Assembly: GCA_948470335.1 (NCBI GenBank)
Contig: CAOKOL010000010.1
Location: forward strand, 1 to 64,000
Direction of reading: 5' to 3'
Source of the DNA: an uncultured Lachnospiraceae bacterium
GTDB lineage: Bacteria > Bacillota > Clostridia > Lachnospirales > Lachnospiraceae
DNA: 64,000 nucleotides
Shown: one piece after another, positions 5,930 to 59,624 of the stretch
How the letters are laid out: each line of letters opens with the position of its first letter
Numbering within the stretch: position 1 is the stretch's first letter
Translations under genes and position numbers: made by a program
Notes under the pieces: generated by a model
Seen by the model: the letters and a program-made list of their open reading frames with translations, nothing else
Databases searched by the model: none
Told to the model about the DNA's origin: nothing

Positions 5930-6308
5930 CCTAGTCTCTCCTTTCCAGTTCCGCAGCTCCCCTCCCAAGTCCCCTTAAACTGGGAGAATTTCCAGCCACT
6001 AAAGTGTCTGTAAATCCCTCCCGGGGCTTGCTATGAGCACTTAGCCTCTGTCTTTTAGGGGCTTACGTGCGATGCATACAAAATTGTTAGCGGGTGTCTT
6101 TTAGCCGCTTACTATTTTGTAGTCCGGTCCGCTGCTGTTTTCATGGTTAGATTATGATCGTCCGTTCCGGCAAACCGCATCACCGGTCCATTTTGCCGGA
6201 TGCCGCATCATATGAAAAACAGCGGGCAAAACGGCTCTGCCCCGTCCTGTTATTTCCTGATTCAAACAGATTCTTCATCTTCTGGATTCTTTTTTTGCGT
6301 TTCCCGGA
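5930..6308 (-). repeat. Long palindromic repeat element in the operon spacer
   Basis: This 379-bp spacer holds no gene. From 5947 to about 6030 it matches the 107-bp repeat found three times at 26895-27214 (AGTTCCGC, CCTCCCAAG, CTGGGAG, TTTCCAGCCACTAA, GTGTCTGTAAATC, GGGGCTTG). The repeat's end (CGGTCCG, GCTG, TTTT) reappears only at 6125-6143, so this copy carries about 94 extra bases. The extra part forms further hairpins, including TACAAAAT...ATTTTGTA around AGCGG/CCGCT, and two TCTTTTAG-type direct repeats. The rest (6150-6308) is unremarkable. Confidence 0.7.
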
Positions 6309-7928: not shown

Positions 7929-7941
7929 ACTTCTCACTCCT

Positions 7942-7961
7942 TATTAGAGTTCCGCAACTCC
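7942..7961 (-). repeat. Short fragment of the palindromic repeat family
   Basis: TATTAGAGTTCCGCAACT at 7942-7959 is identical to 26891-26908, the edge of the 107-bp tandem repeat. As there, it lies just upstream of the ribosome binding site of the following gene. Read on the minus strand, AGTTGCGGAACT is itself a small hairpin. Confidence 0.6.
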
Positions 7962-25619: not shown

Positions 25620-26879
25620 TTACAACGCAAAAAACTGTTTAATCTCCTGTCCGCAGGAAGGAAACAACTCTCCGAATCCTTTGTCAATCACCCGCACCAT
25701 CATGGAATTTTCCTCCACAAAGGCAAAAATCAGTTCCAGTCTTGTAGTTCTGGGCGGCCTTTTGGGAAACAGATCCAGGGAAAGGGTCCAGATCTTCTCC
25801 TCCGGTGAACCGATGGTCTGGACCTGAAAATGAATCTGGTCCTCCTGGTCCACAATCAGCTCCGCATCGGCCCTGGCCTCATACCAGTTGCTGCCTGCTG
25901 CGGCCACCACCAACTGGCAGCTTTTTCCCCGGTGCAGCACTTCCATGGTGATCGTGGAGGAAATCCGTCCCTCGCACAGACAGATATAGGGATAAGCCGT
26001 CTCCGGCCTGGTGTGGTCCCAAGCGATATAGGCCGCCCCCTGGGCAAACAGGTTCTGGCCGGCAAACACCCGCCGTCCCATACACAGCAGCTTTAAGGAT
26101 TCCGGCGCCCAGTCCGTCTGCTGAAAGCCCTTTCCGGTGAGATAAACAGAATGAACAACCTTTTTTCCCAGCATTCTCTGGGCGCAGGCACAGACAATGG
26201 AATCCGCCAGCTTCATCCCTGATTCATGCTCCAGAATATCCAGGCTGAAACTTTCTTCCAGTTCCTCGTGAATACCCTCAATAATCTGGGGCGTTCTCCC
26301 CCGTACCACGCGCATCTCATAATAGTGAAAACCGGATTCCGTCAGATCAAACAGACAACTGGTATGCTGCGGCGCACTGCCGCCGCGTCCCATTACATAA
26401 TAAAGATATGCCTCCGTATGGCTGACAATATGGATGGCATCCCTGGGAATCTCCAGACGGTCTCCGATCTTTACCAACAGATCCATCAGAACCGGTTCCA
26501 GCTTCTGTACCGTGAACACAAGCTGCATAATTCTGGAATCCTTATCATTTAAAATCAGCTCCAGCAGCTTGCCGATAAAACATTCCAGCAGCTCTGCCGC
26601 CGTATATTTCCGTTCCTCCATTGTGGCCGTCCCGGACTTCACCGCCAGACTGACCAGCCGGTCAACAATGATCCCATCTCCCAAAAGGGCCTGATGGTAT
26701 GCCTCCTGACCGATAAACCACTGGTCACTTCCCTTCTTTTTGCACAGGATCGTCGGGACGAGACAGAGCTGCTCATCCTGATTTGCCGAAAAAGCCTCCG
26801 CACCGGAAGTTTTTCGATTGTAATAACTTAACTGGCTGTAATCGTCACACAGATCAATGCCAAGACACCAGTTTTTCAT
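25620..26879 (-). CDS. DUF5716-like protein with Hsp70/actin-type ATPase fold
   Basis: 419 residues from ATG 26879 (AGGAG, 7-base spacing); an upstream extension only reads into the repeat. The start WCLGIDLCDDYSQLSYYN matches the phosphate-1 loop of the Hsp70/actin superfamily. LFDLTESGFHYYEMRV fits the phosphate-2 strand and VYLTGKGFQ resembles the adenosine motif. The C-terminal third is a beta-rich domain. No membrane span. I assign DUF5716 from memory of Lachnospiraceae proteins of this size; ATP binding is inferred. Lies 354 bp downstream of the DUF5717-like gene, with tandem repeats in between. Confidence 0.72.
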   Translation of the reverse strand: MKNWCLGIDLCDDYSQLSYYNRKTSGAEAFSANQDEQLCLVPTILCKKKGSDQWFIGQEAYHQALLGDGIIVDRLVSLAVKSGTATMEERKYTAAELLECFIGKLLELILNDKDSRIMQLVFTVQKLEPVLMDLLVKIGDRLEIPRDAIHIVSHTEAYLYYVMGRGGSAPQHTSCLFDLTESGFHYYEMRVVRGRTPQIIEGIHEELEESFSLDILEHESGMKLADSIVCACAQRMLGKKVVHSVYLTGKGFQQTDWAPESLKLLCMGRRVFAGQNLFAQGAAYIAWDHTRPETAYPYICLCEGRISSTITMEVLHRGKSCQLVVAAAGSNWYEARADAELIVDQEDQIHFQVQTIGSPEEKIWTLSLDLFPKRPPRTTRLELIFAFVEENSMMVRVIDKGFGELFPSCGQEIKQFFAL

Positions 26880-26894
26880 CCATGCTCTCCTATT

Positions 26895-27228
26895 AGAGTT
26901 CCGCAACTTCCCTCCCAAGCCCCCCCTGATCTGGGAGTATTTCCAGCCACTAATGTGTCTGTAAATCCTCCCGGGGGCTTGTACGGTCCGTTGCTGGTTT
27001 TAGAGTTCCGCAACTTCCCTCCCAAGCCCCCCCTGATCTGGGAGTATTTCCAGCCACTAATGTGTCTGTAAATCCTCCCGGGGGCTTGTACGGTCCGTTG
27101 CTGGTTTTAGAGTTCCGCAACTTCCCTCCCAAGCCCCCCTGATCTGGGAGTATTTCCAGCCACTGACGTGTCTGGAAATTCTCCCGGGGCTTGTACGGTC
27201 CGTTGCTGGTTTTCAGAGTTTCGCAGCA
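26895..27228 (-). repeat. Three tandem copies of a 107-bp palindromic repeat
   Basis: Units start at 26895, 27002 and 27109 with periods 107, 107 and 106, then a 14-bp start of a fourth at 27215. Units 1 and 2 are identical by eye; unit 3 has one C fewer and a few changes. Each unit can fold: CAAGCCCCC/GGGGGCTTG outside, GGGAGTATTT/AAATCCTCCC and CAG/CTG inside. The array fills the spacer between the DUF5717-like stop and the ribosome binding site of the DUF5716-like gene. Related copies: 5947-6143 and a fragment at 7942-7961. A 60-codon open frame inside is a by-product of the repeat. Confidence 0.93.
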
Positions 27229-27233
27229 AAAAT

Positions 27234-30200
27234 TTATAACAGCCGAAACAGCCGGCCTGACAGCTCCAGTCTCTTTCCGTACTCCAGCATTTGGCGTTCC
27301 AGCTCCGCGTCCTGCGCCTCTGCTGCGGCCAGCAGCCGGTTAATGGCCTGATACCTGGTCATGACGCCGCCTCCCGCATCCGCCTTTTCGGCGTTTCGCT
27401 CTGTCAATGCCGCTGTATCGGAAATATCAACCGTCAGTGTGCCCGATGCCGCCGCCTGCTTCTGCTCTTTGTCCCTGTAAATCTCATATTCCGCCTGCTC
27501 CCCGTAAAACAGCGTCACCTCATAAGTAAAGATCCCCTGAAAGACATGAACCATCTTTCCCTGAATCGGCGGGGCCGCCGCCGGCAGAATCTGTATCCGG
27601 ATATTCAGCCGCTCCCCCTCCTCTGCCTGATACTCTGCCAGATACCGGTTTTCCATCCATGTCAGGCATCCTGCTTTCGCCGATAAGCCGGGAAAATGAG
27701 CAAATATCATTCCTTTTTCCGTAAACCGTTCCATATACAGCCGGCACAATTCCTTCTGTCGTTCATTTAATTCCGGCAGGCTGTCATAATAACGAGTCAT
27801 GGCAAGAGACTCGATCAGACTGGGCCTGCGGGGCTCCCCTCTGTCTCCTGCCTTCTGCTCCATATACCAGGCCGTTTCCTGCGGCAGCTCCCACATCCTT
27901 CTGACATATCCCCAGGACTTCAATACAAAATAGGCATCCCGCAGCGCAGAATCCACAGTCCCCTGCTTCATATAGATAAAAAACACCTGATCCACCCACT
28001 GCCCGTTTCTGACAAAAATCAGTTGGGCCAGCAGCCGTTCCGGCAGATCCCACAGGTTGACATGACTGTTCTTTGACACCTCCAGAATGCTGTACATCCG
28101 CTCGCTGCTGCCGTTATAATACTGGCAGAGATATTCCAGAATCACATTGTCCAGCTTATCTTCAATAAACAGATGATGGGTCAGACGGATCAGATAATCA
28201 TTAAATCCGCCGTACCGCTCGATAATATAATGACACAGCTTTAACAGTCTGCCGGGCCGGATATCCCGATAGCCATAATTTTCCACGATCTGATAAGCTT
28301 CTTCATAATACCCTTTTGTCACCAAAAGTTCAAGCAAAAGTTTCCTGGCATCCCCGTCTAATATTGCGGGATCGGCCACAGCCGCAAAATTGTCGCACTT
28401 TTCCTGAGAAGGAAGACTCAGATAATACTGAATACCGATCAGCGTCAGCTTTCTGCGAAACAGATCCCGCAGTTTCTTCTCCGACACCCCCCGTTCCAGA
28501 ATCCATACGTCCTCCCGGCTCACCTGGCCGCTGTCATAGATGGCCCGCAGCCGGTTGTAAAAATATTCCGGCTGGCTCTGATCCACCTGGAAACAGGCCT
28601 GCAGAAGATCGTCACAGTCTTCCATCAGCGGTTCCAGCCTGCATGGAATCTGACCGTAACGGTTCCCGTACCCGTCCTGGAAAATCATGCGGAAATGATC
28701 GCCGTACACCGGCACGCAGGCTTTCTGCTCCCGCAGGGCAAACCGCATCTCATCCCTTCTGTCCTCATAGCAGAAAATCACATGGGTGATCTCCGGATTC
28801 TCGCAGGAAAATTCCCTGGCGCAGAGCATGGCCGGAAAGATTTTTCCCGCCCGCTCATCCAGCATTTCCGGATAGATCAGTTCCCGGTAAATCCGCGACA
28901 GCTCCCTGCTGATCCTGCCTTTCAGCATCTGGTCCACCGCAAAGACTTCCATTTCTTTGGCATAGGACTGATAAATATCCTGCATCCTTCCCTTATTCTG
29001 TATAATATTCAGATACAGCCGGGTCCTGGCCTCATGGTCGGCAGGCTGCTGATACGAAAAATACAAAAGAAGGGGCCTGGGCAGAGGACCCTCAAACGCG
29101 GAAGGCATCGTATACAGGTAATAATCGTAAAGCCGGGTCAGTTTAAGCTCCTGTCTGACCCCTTCCTGATAATAATCAAAACATTCCGGCTCTCTCTGGT
29201 CTGATTTTATCATCAGGCTTAACACACCGGACAGCAGTTCCTTCGTTTTATATTTCCGATACAGGCTTTTCAGCAGTTCCAGCTCCCGGAAACCGGCATT
29301 CTTCTTTTTCATGGCCAGCGCGGCCGTACCGTCTGCCAGCCGTTTGGTCATCAGCCCCTGGCGGATGCCAAACCAGAGCGCCGCCATCGTAAGCTCGTCC
29401 AGGAAACGCAGCAGCCGTTCATCCTCCCGCAGCGTGAAATATGCCGCCAGATAAAGCCAGGGACTTCGGCATCCCCTTTCATAATAAGTGCGGATCTTTT
29501 CCCAGCGCATGGCCGGATGGTCCGACTGACTGCGGTCGTTCAGAATCAGCAGAAGCAAAACCGCCGGGTCCGACAGCCCGTCGCCGTCATACTTTTTCAG
29601 AATAACATTCAGCGTCGTTCCGCTTTCTTCTCCCTCTCCCAGCAGCTTTTTCCCGTACAGATAAAGACAATAATTTCCCGGCTCCTCAATCCGCCACATC
29701 AGCACGTCGTCAGTCACGGAATCCAGAAGCCGCCGCCCTTCCTCCGGCTCCCACTGGGAAGCCGCAATGCACTGAAACAGGGTAATCCGTATATCCGGCG
29801 TTTCTTCTCCGTAATCGCCGGTTAAACGCCCGTAAGCCATTTTCAGTTTCTGATAGGCTGCCTCCGTGACCAGCCGTTCCCGGTGACTCTGATAGCGCAG
29901 ACCGGCCTCCGCAAGAAAGATGCGAAGATAGGCAAGCCGCAGCTTCTCTTTTCCTGCTTCGCTGATTTTCCGTTCGCCCTTATAGACCGTAATCGGAATC
30001 TGAAACCGGTACAGCAGAGAGCTGATCGTGATACGGCCCGTATTTTTCCCCGTATAAAGCTTCCGGCCCAGTATGCGGTAAGAGATTCTGGTCTGCTTTC
30101 CGGTGAAATCGTCGTCCGTTATGGTGTTTTTTTCCAGACTGATAAATTCGCCTTCCGCTTTGATCTGCAGTTTCAGATATCCCCGCCCGCTGCGCTCAAT

Positions 30201-30848
30201 CAGAATGCCGTCTTCCGTTTCCTCATCGCTCTTTAAGCGGCAGACCCGTTCTTCCTCATCCACGGTCAGCGATACCCGCTCCTTGCCCCCTGACGCCACC
30301 AGAAATTCTTCCATGCCTGCCTGTCTGTCATTCTGAAACCGCAGCCCGTCGTACAGGCTGCACAATCCCAGATCCTGCATAAAAGGCAGCGCCGGAAACC
30401 TGCCGGAATCAAAAATACGCAGCGCCTCGTCGCGGGAACCGGAAGCAAAGGAAGCAAACTGCTCCAGCAGATCAAAGGACTCCCCCAGAGCCATGGTCTG
30501 GGAAAAGGTAAACTGATAGGGCAGATCATACTCCCCGCCCGTACACACAATATGAAAACGTCCTTTGATCACGGCGGCCTGGTGGGTATACTCCTCTCTG
30601 ATCTGATAATCCAGAACAGCCCCTGTCCCGGCAAACTGACTGTTCTTCAATTCCACCCGATAGTCAGAAGAATACACCAGCCCTTTCACCGGCTCCTGTT
30701 CTTCGCAGAGCAGATGAACGGTACCCGTCACCCCCTTGCCGCAGGGACGGACTTCTTCAATCGTTTCGGGATGAAACCCCAGCCTGTACCCCTGCTGCGA
30801 AATCTCTCCCTTGGCTATTTTTTTTATATACTCTCTCAAAAATATCAC
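27234..30848 (-). CDS. DUF5717-like large protein, function unknown
   Basis: 1204 residues from GTG 30848; no strong ribosome binding site is visible, and TTG 30839 is an alternative. No signal peptide or membrane segment. The N-terminal ~330 residues are beta-rich (several immunoglobulin-like stretches, such as VKGLVYSSDYRVELKN and GRFHIVCTGGEYDLPYQF). The middle ~600 residues are helical and repeat-like, rich in Tyr, Leu and Arg, and the C-terminus ends in a short helical tail. Matches in size and context the DUF5717 proteins that accompany DUF5716. First gene of the operon; function unknown, but a scaffold or surface-adhesion role at the cytosolic face would be compatible with the architecture. 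Confidence 0.75.
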   Translation of the reverse strand: MIFLREYIKKIAKGEISQQGYRLGFHPETIEEVRPCGKGVTGTVHLLCEEQEPVKGLVYSSDYRVELKNSQFAGTGAVLDYQIREEYTHQAAVIKGRFHIVCTGGEYDLPYQFTFSQTMALGESFDLLEQFASFASGSRDEALRIFDSGRFPALPFMQDLGLCSLYDGLRFQNDRQAGMEEFLVASGGKERVSLTVDEEERVCRLKSDEETEDGILIERSGRGYLKLQIKAEGEFISLEKNTITDDDFTGKQTRISYRILGRKLYTGKNTGRITISSLLYRFQIPITVYKGERKISEAGKEKLRLAYLRIFLAEAGLRYQSHRERLVTEAAYQKLKMAYGRLTGDYGEETPDIRITLFQCIAASQWEPEEGRRLLDSVTDDVLMWRIEEPGNYCLYLYGKKLLGEGEESGTTLNVILKKYDGDGLSDPAVLLLLILNDRSQSDHPAMRWEKIRTYYERGCRSPWLYLAAYFTLREDERLLRFLDELTMAALWFGIRQGLMTKRLADGTAALAMKKKNAGFRELELLKSLYRKYKTKELLSGVLSLMIKSDQREPECFDYYQEGVRQELKLTRLYDYYLYTMPSAFEGPLPRPLLLYFSYQQPADHEARTRLYLNIIQNKGRMQDIYQSYAKEMEVFAVDQMLKGRISRELSRIYRELIYPEMLDERAGKIFPAMLCAREFSCENPEITHVIFCYEDRRDEMRFALREQKACVPVYGDHFRMIFQDGYGNRYGQIPCRLEPLMEDCDDLLQACFQVDQSQPEYFYNRLRAIYDSGQVSREDVWILERGVSEKKLRDLFRRKLTLIGIQYYLSLPSQEKCDNFAAVADPAILDGDARKLLLELLVTKGYYEEAYQIVENYGYRDIRPGRLLKLCHYIIERYGGFNDYLIRLTHHLFIEDKLDNVILEYLCQYYNGSSERMYSILEVSKNSHVNLWDLPERLLAQLIFVRNGQWVDQVFFIYMKQGTVDSALRDAYFVLKSWGYVRRMWELPQETAWYMEQKAGDRGEPRRPSLIESLAMTRYYDSLPELNERQKELCRLYMERFTEKGMIFAHFPGLSAKAGCLTWMENRYLAEYQAEEGERLNIRIQILPAAAPPIQGKMVHVFQGIFTYEVTLFYGEQAEYEIYRDKEQKQAAASGTLTVDISDTAALTERNAEKADAGGGVMTRYQAINRLLAAAEAQDAELERQMLEYGKRLELSGRLFRLL

Positions 30849-53888: not shown

Positions 53889-54818
53889 CTACCGCCCGGT
53901 TTCCTCATCATGTCTGGGATGTTCTTTTACTTCCAGGCAGGCCTTTAATGTGGCAGTGAAAATATCTGTTTTTCTTCTGCTTTCGTAAAAATTCAGCATA
54001 AGGCTGATAGCGTTTTCGTCCATAACCACATATTTTGACGGAAGAGACGTCAAAATCAGCGCATGCACGTCGGCACGGCATCTGGGGCAGGGACATACGC
54101 CGTATTCTTTGATATATTTATCCAGATCCACACGGGCCACCAGCGTCTCCATCACGTTCACCATCCGGTAGCCGGGCTGAGAAGGCATAGTAGGCTGTGT
54201 AGTTGTATTCGAACTCTCTGTCTGTGCGGCCGGCTTTGCTTCCGTGTCCACACTCTCCGCCGCGGCAGTCGTATCTGCTGCCGTATCCATATTCTCTGTC
54301 GCTGCAGTCATATCCGCTGCCATTTCCATATTCTCTGTCTCCGGGACTGTATTCATCTCTGTATCCATCATTGGCTCCACAATCTCTGTCTCCGTTACTG
54401 CTGTATCTGCAGGAGCTGTAAGTCCGGGTTCTGCCGCCGCACTTATGGTCTCCATCGGTTCCTGTTCTGCTGTTTCTGTCTCCTGGGAAGGCTGGGCCGT
54501 CTCGGCCTGCTCTTTCAGCTCTGCCTCCAGCTCTGATTCCAACTGGCCTCGGATCTCCTCGGAAAGCCGTTCGCTCTCCTGATCTTCATCGACCACAACC
54601 ACCTTTTTGATCTCCGATTCGGTCGGTGCGGATGTCTGGGCCGCTGCCACGTTCGGAGACGCTGCCTGAACGCCCTGTGCATTCGGCCCGTCCTGAGGGG
54701 CCTGCGCGCTTTCCCCGTTCTCCGGAACCTGACCGTTTTGGGCTTCCTGTCCCTGTTCTTCCTCTCCGTTGGTGATCAGATTCATAACATATGACGTTTT
54801 ATTTGACTTTCTGGGCAT
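53889..54818 (-). CDS. ComFB-domain protein with long acidic N-terminal region
   Basis: 309 residues. The N-terminus (about 1-215) is Glu/Ala/Thr/Pro-rich with imperfect repeats of the M-D-T-A-A-D-T-T-A-A type and is probably disordered. The C-terminal ~90 residues are a ComFB domain: MVNVMETLVARVDLDKYI, then VCPCPRCRADVHALILTSLP with the C-x-C-x2-C set, then DENAISLMLNFYESRRK. ComFB-family proteins have been reported as cyclic-dinucleotide binders (recollection). Directly downstream of the ParA gene in a chemotaxis/flagellar series, so a link to positioning or motility control is plausible. Confidence 0.8.
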   Translation of the reverse strand: MPRKSNKTSYVMNLITNGEEEQGQEAQNGQVPENGESAQAPQDGPNAQGVQAASPNVAAAQTSAPTESEIKKVVVVDEDQESERLSEEIRGQLESELEAELKEQAETAQPSQETETAEQEPMETISAAAEPGLTAPADTAVTETEIVEPMMDTEMNTVPETENMEMAADMTAATENMDTAADTTAAAESVDTEAKPAAQTESSNTTTQPTMPSQPGYRMVNVMETLVARVDLDKYIKEYGVCPCPRCRADVHALILTSLPSKYVVMDENAISLMLNFYESRRKTDIFTATLKACLEVKEHPRHDEETGR

Positions 54819-56737: not shown

Positions 56738-57229
56738 CTACAAATACCTCTCTGGTTTCCCCACAGCTCTGATCATAACACTGCCGGTGCCTACGTCTAA
56801 AAACATGGTTCTGGCACAAACTCCGCCCGTATCCTCTGCCGCGATCCGCAGACCTTCTTCCCTTAAGACCTGCTTTACCACCATAATGTTGCGCTGTCCG
56901 ATATTTCCGAAATCTGCTTTTCCGCTGATCTCGAACATTTTAGCTCCGCCGGCGATCTTCACTACGGTCCTCGACTTCATCATACCGAAAACCGTCAGCT
57001 TCCGCAGCGTCTCGCGGATACCCGCGTCCGCATATTTAAATGGATTCTGGTCTCCGCCGGCGCCTTTGTTCGGCAGCATGACATGAAGCAACGCGCCCAG
57101 ACGAATCATCGGATCATAGAATGTAACGCCGATACATGACCCCAGCGCATATGTGACGACCCGACCTTCGTTTCTGGCAAATTTCATATCACCAATTCCA
57201 ACTTTAAGATCCTTATCAAACATCGTCAT
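56738..57229 (-). CDS. cheD: Chemoreceptor glutamine deamidase CheD
   Basis: 163 residues. TYALGSCIGVTFYD carries the catalytic Cys and GALLHVMLPN the catalytic His; GGAKMFEI and NAIGQRN-like IGQRNIMVVKQVL follow. Deamidates receptor Gln and is the partner of CheC. Start overlaps the cheC stop by 4 bp (ATGA). Confidence 0.94.
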   Translation of the reverse strand: MTMFDKDLKVGIGDMKFARNEGRVVTYALGSCIGVTFYDPMIRLGALLHVMLPNKGAGGDQNPFKYADAGIRETLRKLTVFGMMKSRTVVKIAGGAKMFEISGKADFGNIGQRNIMVVKQVLREEGLRIAAEDTGGVCARTMFLDVGTGSVMIRAVGKPERYL

Positions 57230-57846
57230 GAAACCCCTAATTTACTTAAAATTCGATTTAGAGACGCAATATCCGCCAGCATCAGCAGCCAGTCGTTCAT
57301 CTTTTCCCCTTCAATGAGGAAATCTGCGTCAAAATACATCAACTGATCCGTATCGTTTCCGCATTCCGTCATGGGAACCGTCAGAATACCGCCCAGCATA
57401 TTGATGGTAAAGCTGGGTACGGAGAGCTGAATATTCATCCCCGCCAACTGTGAAAAAGCATTGATATAGGAGCAGATAATGATATTTCCCACTTCTGTCA
57501 GCGCCGATGCGCCCAGCTCATCCATAAACTCCAAACCCTCAAAGGTTTTTCCCATAAATTTCTCCAGGATACGGTTGGCAAAGCGCAGGTTAAAGAGGAA
57601 CAGCATCAGGCCGTCCACGTCACCGTCCATTTTTACCAGTGTGGCAGCCACGATTTCCTCCGGATCTCCGGTCTGATCCAGCGCCGTCTGGTAATTCAGG
57701 ACACTGACCCGCGGAATGGTAATGCGGACCTCTTTTTGAAGCATTTTGGAAAGAGAGGTGGCCGCATGGCTGGTGCCTATGCTGCCGATCTCTTTCATAA
57801 TATCCAGTTCCTGAAGATTCATATCACTGTATTTTTCAATCGCCAC
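57226..57846 (-). CDS. cheC: Chemotaxis phosphatase CheC
   Basis: 206 residues, CheC/FliY-type fold without a FliN domain. First phosphatase motif reads DIMKEIGSIGTSHAATSL, with Ser where the essential Asn of E-x2-N is expected. The second, ALTEVGNIIICSYINAFS, keeps E-x2-N. So one of two active sites looks degenerate. Dephosphorylates CheY-P and is activated by CheD. Coupled to cheD. 158-bp spacer upstream contains no clear promoter. Confidence 0.9.
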   Translation of the reverse strand: MAIEKYSDMNLQELDIMKEIGSIGTSHAATSLSKMLQKEVRITIPRVSVLNYQTALDQTGDPEEIVAATLVKMDGDVDGLMLFLFNLRFANRILEKFMGKTFEGLEFMDELGASALTEVGNIIICSYINAFSQLAGMNIQLSVPSFTINMLGGILTVPMTECGNDTDQLMYFDADFLIEGEKMNDWLLMLADIASLNRILSKLGVS

Positions 57847-58004
57847 CTATGCTGTCCCTCCTAATTCAGTTCTGCCGCACCCCTGCCAGGATACCTGGTT
57901 CCGGACAGATTTCCGGGCATCCTCCATGTCCCTATGTCCATCCGTGTACTGTCCGGGGCCGCGCTGATTATAATACTGCTGTTCTAACTTCTGTTACCTC
58001 AGGG

Positions 58005-58760
58005 CTATCCTCTCAGTGAATTAATTGTCTGTACGGTATCATCCGAGGTCTGCACCATTTTCAAAGCATAGGTGAACGCCCGCTGTGCCTCGATCATTTT
58101 CACATATTCGCCTGCCACGTCCACACCGGAGGACTCCACATAGCCTGTTTCCAGATAAGGGCTTTCCACCGGGATCGGCTCCACGCCCTCATCGGAAGGA
58201 ACATACTCATTATCACCGATGCTCAACAGGCGGCTGGGCAGGTCAAACGTAACGATACCTGGCTGAGCCTGCACCCGCTCTTCCGCTTCCTCAATAATCT
58301 CCCCGTTTTCGTCGGTCTGGGGCATCAGAAGCTCCACCGGCTGCTGGTTCTCGTCCAGCACCAGTTTTCCGTTCTGAGTCGTTAAATAGAATACGCCGTC
58401 AATTTCTCCCCGGTGAAAATTGCCGTCTCTGGTATAGGAAATTGCACCGGTAGCCACATCCTGCACCATAAAGAACGTATTTCGTTCACCCAGCGCGTAG
58501 TTGAGCTGGTTTCCGGTCTGATGGAATGCGGACACCTCAAAAGGGGTATAGGTGCGCTGCACCCGCATTCCGGCGCCTGCCTGCAGCTCTGTTACCGCCT
58601 CAATATCATCGTTCAGGTTATAATTGATCAGCTCGGAAAATACCGCTGTTTTCGGCTTATAGCCATTGTTGTTTACATTCGCCAGGTTATTGGAAACCAC
58701 GCTCAGTTTATTCAGGCAATTATCGGCTCCGATCGCGCCGACATAAAATGACATTTCCAT
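58005..58760 (-). CDS. Flagellar hook-basal body protein, FlgG/FlhP type
   Basis: 251 residues. N-terminal LSVVSNNLANVNNNGYKP (rod-type helix) and C-terminal GEYVKMIEAQRAFTYALKMV are the FlgG/FlgF/FlgE signatures. ALGERNTFFMVQD and SYTRDGNFHRG are present. Second of two such genes in tandem, like flhO-flhP. Forms part of the distal rod/hook junction. Confidence 0.9.
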   Translation of the reverse strand: MEMSFYVGAIGADNCLNKLSVVSNNLANVNNNGYKPKTAVFSELINYNLNDDIEAVTELQAGAGMRVQRTYTPFEVSAFHQTGNQLNYALGERNTFFMVQDVATGAISYTRDGNFHRGEIDGVFYLTTQNGKLVLDENQQPVELLMPQTDENGEIIEEAEERVQAQPGIVTFDLPSRLLSIGDNEYVPSDEGVEPIPVESPYLETGYVESSGVDVAGEYVKMIEAQRAFTYALKMVQTSDDTVQTINSLRG

Positions 58761-59571: not shown

Positions 59572-59624
59572 ACCTTTATTACCTCCTGTTAGTAGTTCCG
59601 CTGTCTTTTAGTTCCGTCTTATTC

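Follow-up and report, generated by a model that had tools for sequence, protein, structure and literature searches.

The window analyzed here is a 64,000-nt stretch of DNA from an uncultured Lachnospiraceae bacterium (assembly GCA_948470335.1, contig CAOKOL010000010.1, positions 1 to 64,000), and the element in question is a tandem array of a foldable repeat lying between two minus-strand genes. The upstream gene encodes a DUF5717 protein (PF18984, PF18983; 27234..30848) and the downstream gene a DUF5716_C protein of 419 aa (PF18980; 25620..26879), both assigned by family match; together they form an adjacent pair of unknown function (25620-30848). Tandem Repeats Finder placed the array at 26893-27225 (period 107, 3.1 copies, 96% matches), bounded by the DUF5717 stop upstream and the DUF5716_C Shine-Dalgarno sequence (SD) downstream. 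Read on the minus strand, which is the gene strand, the array is made up of three units in direct repeat (107, 107 and 106 nt): the SD-proximal unit 1 (26894..27000; R2 model match at 26898-26996, 91.9 bits), unit 2 (27001..27107; R2 model match) and the distal, diverged unit 3 (27108..27213; R2 match at 27112-27208, 94.8 bits, E = 1.9e-20). The SD region ATAGGAGAGC (26883..26893, minus strand) follows directly 3' of the array, ahead of the DUF5716 start.

An earlier note on this DNA had described three tandem foldable units with periods of 107, 107 and 106, and repeat detection, unit comparison and folding against shuffled sequences all agreed with that description. On the gene strand, unit 1 folded at -48.2 kcal/mol (shuffled, -29.4 ± 3.2; z = -6.0) and unit 3 at -51.8 kcal/mol (z = -7.1 against shuffles). 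Units 1 and 2, the two nearest the downstream gene, were identical over 107/107 nt, which bears out the recent amplification that had been proposed from their near-identity. The fourth stub does exist (GCTGCGAAACTCTG; 27214..27230, minus strand) and could be identified as a remnant of the 3' end of an older unit: its sequence GCTGCGAAACTC matches the unit 3' end and sits just past the upstream stop TAA. Placement between a stop codon and the next ribosome binding site, proposed to be non-random, was found at this locus as described.

Each unit is an imperfect hairpin of ~100 nt that closes with a conserved tail, GCGGAACU, directly 5' of the SD, and occurs in one to three direct copies. Its layout is CAGC, a first helix (P1) of 10 bp, a second loop (for most units G(G/T)A x GGA), a second helix (P2), a 3' bulge of 8-10 nt, a third helix (P3) and the tail. 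P1 is interrupted by a 3x3 purine loop in the units of the host genome, and P3 carries AUUU/AAAU and spaced A.G mismatches.

The window's own genome is referred to as G000, two congeners as G001 and G002, and a species of another genus as G015. Used as a BLAST query, the array returned 60 matches in G000, and a covariance model first built from 47 units found at least 144 units in 113 arrays of that genome (89 single, 17 double and 7 triple). Unit counts are lower bounds throughout, as the single-genome searches scored 150 candidates per genome (for G000, the best 150 of 2356). In G015, two hits lying on the strand opposite a stronger hit were removed prior to counting (109 to 107). Exact copies of the tail GCGGAACT with GGAG 2-10 nt behind them numbered 122, against 3 for the backward pattern. 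The genome-wide search that the earlier note had called for thus showed that the unit is not unique to the window.

Placement was assessed for all arrays listed in G000 and G015. An array passed if, on its own strand and 5-40 nt beyond its 3' end, there was an SD-like motif with a start codon opening a reading frame of at least 50 codons or one running off the stretch. Evaluable arrays omitted those at contig ends (6/113 in G000, 0/90 in G015 and 2/76 in the named genomes). In G000, 101 of 107 evaluable arrays passed, with 1 for the opposite-strand control, so orientation relative to gene borders is not random, and the sense units lie just 5' of an SD. G015 gave 86 of 90, with 3 for the control. 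The distance from array to start was narrowly distributed (median 17 nt in G000, 5-95% range 14-22; 16 nt in G015), and most failing arrays also seemed to point at a gene whose SD is weaker or whose start comes right after the unit. A third set, drawn from 14 named genomes (65 stretches), had 74 evaluable arrays, of which 71 passed (1 on the other strand); these loci were picked by one exact pattern and are biased to units close to it, and three of them (L368, L385 and L397) are G015 itself at 100% protein identity, so that the sets overlap slightly. With more than 100 sites in the genome, and with a placement common to the whole family, there is nothing special about DUF5716 as the gene downstream of the window array.

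A same-strand gene ended within 100 nt 5' of the array at 58 of 98 evaluable sites in G000 and 69 of 89 in G015; many sites therefore lie within operons, where separation of cistrons would matter. These figures, and the long duplex beside the SD, also suit a processing site, at which cleavage within the element would split a polycistronic mRNA and leave each cistron with a protective 5' hairpin. The other arrays, which have no nearby same-strand gene upstream, argue against it, and we consider this explanation quite improbable. A stable GC-rich hairpin between genes could equally bring to mind an intrinsic terminator or attenuator; however, no T run follows the hairpin, the array yielded no terminator-like site, and the units sit in sense just before an SD, so this possibility is close to negligible. 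A promoter within the unit was also considered and rejected: the array holds two weak consensus matches (TTTACA-18-AATACT), and the first hexamer is lost in many G015 units.

The downstream genes are of many kinds and include what we take to be atpE, purE, metK, pyrG, nrdR, iscU, aspS and transport genes. When 106 downstream proteins of G000 were compared with 90 of G015, 9 reciprocal best hits were obtained; identity reached 70% for only 2 of them, a protein resembling aspartyl-tRNA synthetase and a dehydrogenase. This overlap was judged to be near chance, set against roughly one shared ortholog expected, a figure that was estimated loosely and not computed as a null; a shared regulon is unsupported by the comparison. 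The result bears on whether the element is a conventional cis-regulatory RNA, that is, a ligand- or protein-binding leader with a regulon. Conserved unpaired bases, covariation, a position in the 5' untranslated region (UTR) and an optional extra domain all speak for such a leader, but the variety of downstream genes, hardly any of them common to the two genera, and the congeners that lack the element at the loci compared make it improbable.

Distribution was surveyed with a second covariance model, scoring the best 10 candidates per genome. On that basis at least 8 of the 397 family genomes surveyed carried the element, representing 7 of 334 genera with the window's own genus counted, and among 391 genomes of the class it was found in the own genome only. 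Other carriers were G210 (at least 65 units), G298 (at least 38), G199 (at least 8), G272 and G396 (at least 2 each) and the congener G001 (at least 1). Their units showed the same layout wherever a gene was in view; among these 30 units, several were inner units with a further unit behind them, and 4 lacked a start by the placement test. Named carriers were labeled as Clostridia, as Lachnospiraceae or something close to them, or as uncultured, and one was Acetatifactor muris DSM 23669, in which units precede two genes in one 8-kb stretch. Several named carriers appear to come from mouse-gut collections; the named carriers seem tied to rodent-gut Lachnospiraceae, which suggests exchange within that community. 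A phage- or plasmid-borne element is unsupported, as phage, plasmid and viral collections gave no match to the element.

The locus in the window is empty in both congeners, and in G002 the stop TAA runs directly into the SD (TAAGGAGGCATCCATG). When 20 other G000 loci were queried, an orthologous start was recovered in G001 or G002 for 15, and a unit was present at 0 of these 15 (one G002 row, L258, was left out of the empty-site count). The native SD type is retained in G000 beside the unit, as AAAGAAAGG at the presumed metK and GAAGGAGGA at the presumed pyrG. Because the congener sites are empty with the SD in place, the copies were most likely gained in the G000 lineage, immediately 5' of SDs that were already there; loss from both of the congeners is the less likely alternative. 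Unit number also changes over short times. At three comparable sites in the CAJTAK and JAETRR records, which represent two close species, two carried 2 units against 1, and array copy number is therefore labile. The phase-variable dial that the earlier note had suggested goes further than this and is conjectural.

The fold of the unit is backed by strong covariation. When 34 diverse G000 and G015 units were aligned with a 33-pair structure, 88.7% of alignment cells were paired and double changes occurred in 22 of 33 pairs. Double-change cells numbered 141, compared with 41.5 ± 5.8 in shuffled alignments and at most 32 when the structure was slid. Across 172 units, G.U cells exceeded A.C cells on the sense strand (143 vs. 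64; 56 vs. 31 at well-aligned pairs), which points to selection on that strand, most simply as RNA.

Variants of the unit were also seen. The same foldable insert of ~90 nt, composed of several hairpins, lies between P1 and P2 in 14 of the 113 G000 arrays, including the one at 5945-6142 of the window; it is like an optional RNA domain, or like a nested element amplified as a composite. Many single copies open with a leader, GG(T/C)AGTGTCAARYRRTNTATGA, whose core gave 68 matches in G000 at up to 2 mismatches (1 for the control), and a similar leader occurs in G210 and G396. All 12 inspected leader loci without an intact unit held an internally deleted unit with both ends kept, ahead of a gene start. 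A purine-rich flank precedes the leader, with G at position -3 in 22 of 26 copies and at -2 in 23 of 26.

Several of these features could be those of a selfish DNA repeat whose insertion machinery favors the purine-rich SD on one strand, whose hairpin serves DNA transposition and whose position in mRNA is merely tolerated. The family is patchy and high-copy without a regulon, the 5' terminus is defined (GG(T/C)AGTGTCAA) beside the purine-rich flank, internal-deletion derivatives retain both ends, and the insert-bearing composites, with the insert at one point, were amplified as a subfamily. Set against this, no inverted termini are visible; a search for target-site duplications over 26 copies gave a best 3-nt match in 5 against 1.2 expected, with many offsets tried; no Y1 transposase (PF01797) was found in G000 or G015; and G.U exceeds A.C on the sense strand. 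We regard this selfish-repeat reading as rather unlikely.

To ask what a unit does to the SD that it adjoins, leaders were folded for 93 G000 loci. Mean SD openness was 0.552 with the unit and 0.561 without it (not different), and fell to 0.475 with the unit reversed (P = 4e-4) and to 0.524 with the unit shuffled (P = 0.02). A sense unit that is neutral for the SD, where the reversed unit is slightly harmful, fits a cap that shields and yet keeps the start open. Patchy, sense-oriented and SD-adjacent, the repeat has the look of an element that spreads and is linked to translation start. The reading we favor, at a probability of roughly 0.55, is that the array is a member of a high-copy, mobile-like family of RNA-structured 5' UTR elements of some Lachnospiraceae, predicted to cap SDs without hiding them. 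Units would have spread into SD-adjacent sites after the species split. Within the mRNA, a unit may act as a cap by folding on itself and leaving the SD open, and the cap would set its cistron apart from sequence and ribosomes upstream and from decay. Extra units would add more of the same effect, and tandem gain or loss could tune the cistron. A further-reaching version, which we hold only tentatively, would make the family a new class of mobile element that enters the translation initiation region in sense only, 5' of SDs, via a route reading mRNA or the SD, that spreads between gut Lachnospiraceae genera and that insulates and tunes cistrons by copy number.

A number of observations weigh against the favored reading. 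The effect on openness is far too small to account by itself for the nearly complete orientation bias; targeted insertion, or else functional selection, has to contribute as well. The element is absent from most relatives and is thus dispensable. No mobility enzyme was found, where the aimed search was for the Y1 transposase family PF01797 (0 matches in G000 and G015, genomes 93-94% complete; 1 in G001). The 34-unit set, which was chosen for divergence and contains misaligned columns, gave G.U equal to A.C (26 vs. 26); G.U cells are also few in absolute terms, and related copies are non-independent. At locus L359 (7635-7735), a unit whose 3x3 loop is now paired forms an almost perfect palindrome, an apparent template-switch correction. 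Template switching can accordingly mimic compensation, and part of the covariation may be mutational.

The element was also compared with known systems. Repetitive extragenic palindromes (REP) and bacterial interspersed mosaic elements (BIME), which are associated with the Y1 transposase RAYT, are palindromic extragenic repeats that occur in clusters, often inside operons, and the element resembles them in these respects. It differs in its much longer unit, in clusters that are direct and not inverted, and in its landmark, which is the SD and not the stop. REP palindromes measure 20-40 bp in the portion of the source consulted (PMC3733652). Membership in REP/RAYT was not supported on the features examined, given that PF01797 was not found in G000 or G015 and given a unit of ~100 nt with 33 pairs in three helices, not a short palindrome. 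High copy number, non-coding content and occupied and empty sites between relatives are shared with miniature inverted-repeat transposable elements (MITEs); a classical MITE was not supported on the features examined, as the 5' end GG(T/C)AGTGTCAAG and the 3' end GCGGAACTAAATT are not inverted copies by eye.

BOX and bcr repeats are nearest in kind, and neither is described as bound to SDs in the parts of the literature consulted. BOX elements of Streptococcus pneumoniae are interspersed (125 in one genome), with inverted termini and target duplications, in the sections drawn on here (PMC3049150). As far as that description extends, the likeness lies in an interspersed, RNA-foldable, modular repeat of variable size that has proliferated in few species, and the difference in the element's lack of visible inverted termini and its fixed sense position 5' of the SD. 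The repeats bcr1-bcr18 of the Bacillus cereus group, with 84/165 and 62/155 copies found in mRNA according to the excerpts used (PMC3446304), are likewise dispersed Gram-positive repeats, some with conserved RNA structure and in 5' UTRs; no fixed SD abutment is stated for them in those excerpts. The available sections of a MITE review (PMC10969869) held no passage on SD, Clostridi or orientation, and no description of this repeat family was found in the open-access literature.

RiboJ is an engineered synthetic 5' UTR insulator, a self-cleaving ribozyme. The element resembles it as a hairpin directly 5' of the SD that leaves the SD open; engineering and self-cleavage are features of RiboJ, whereas the element gave no sign of cleavage. 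Membership in a known Rfam RNA family was not supported: the window gave no match at gathering score (best E = 0.24 near the array with relaxed limits), and three related loci gave two sub-threshold matches only (E = 0.06 and 0.10). The former, to the group II intron model group-II-D1D4-3 at L354 5247-5426 (27.8 bits, 32 needed), overlaps an Acetatifactor muris unit and is taken as chance.

Beyond the array, two further units and some short remnants lie in the window, all on the strand of the following gene, which is the minus strand in each case. The second site (5945..6142; R2 model match and sequence) precedes the SD of a 563-aa gene and is one unit whose P1 and P2 are separated by the foldable insert of ~90 nt. 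At the third site a diverged unit (57869..57966; R2 match, E = 1.6e-8) lies 5' of the SD of the next gene; its flanking genes are presumably flagellar rod/hook-like (58005-58760) and CheC-like (57226-57846). The remnants, recognized by sequence, are a unit 3' end, GGAGTTGCGGAACT (7937..7961), ahead of the SD of a 539-aa gene, and ACAGCGGAACT (59583..59604), ahead of that of a 254-aa gene. Separately, relatives of the DUF5716 protein were present in 37 of 61 genomes searched, and a 39-bp tandem repeat lies elsewhere in the window (54238-54339, 2.6 copies).

Interspersed repeats are common in bacteria; a family with near-invariant orientation, set at a constant distance ahead of the SD and sharing hardly any target genes between two genera, is undescribed in the literature surveyed. 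If the units do act as caps, these species would possess a naturally occurring, movable part for keeping the cistrons of an operon separate. If insertion is targeted, the family would represent a mobile element that recognizes ribosome-binding sites. Both readings could be put to the test in Acetatifactor muris DSM 23669, a carrier that can be cultured.
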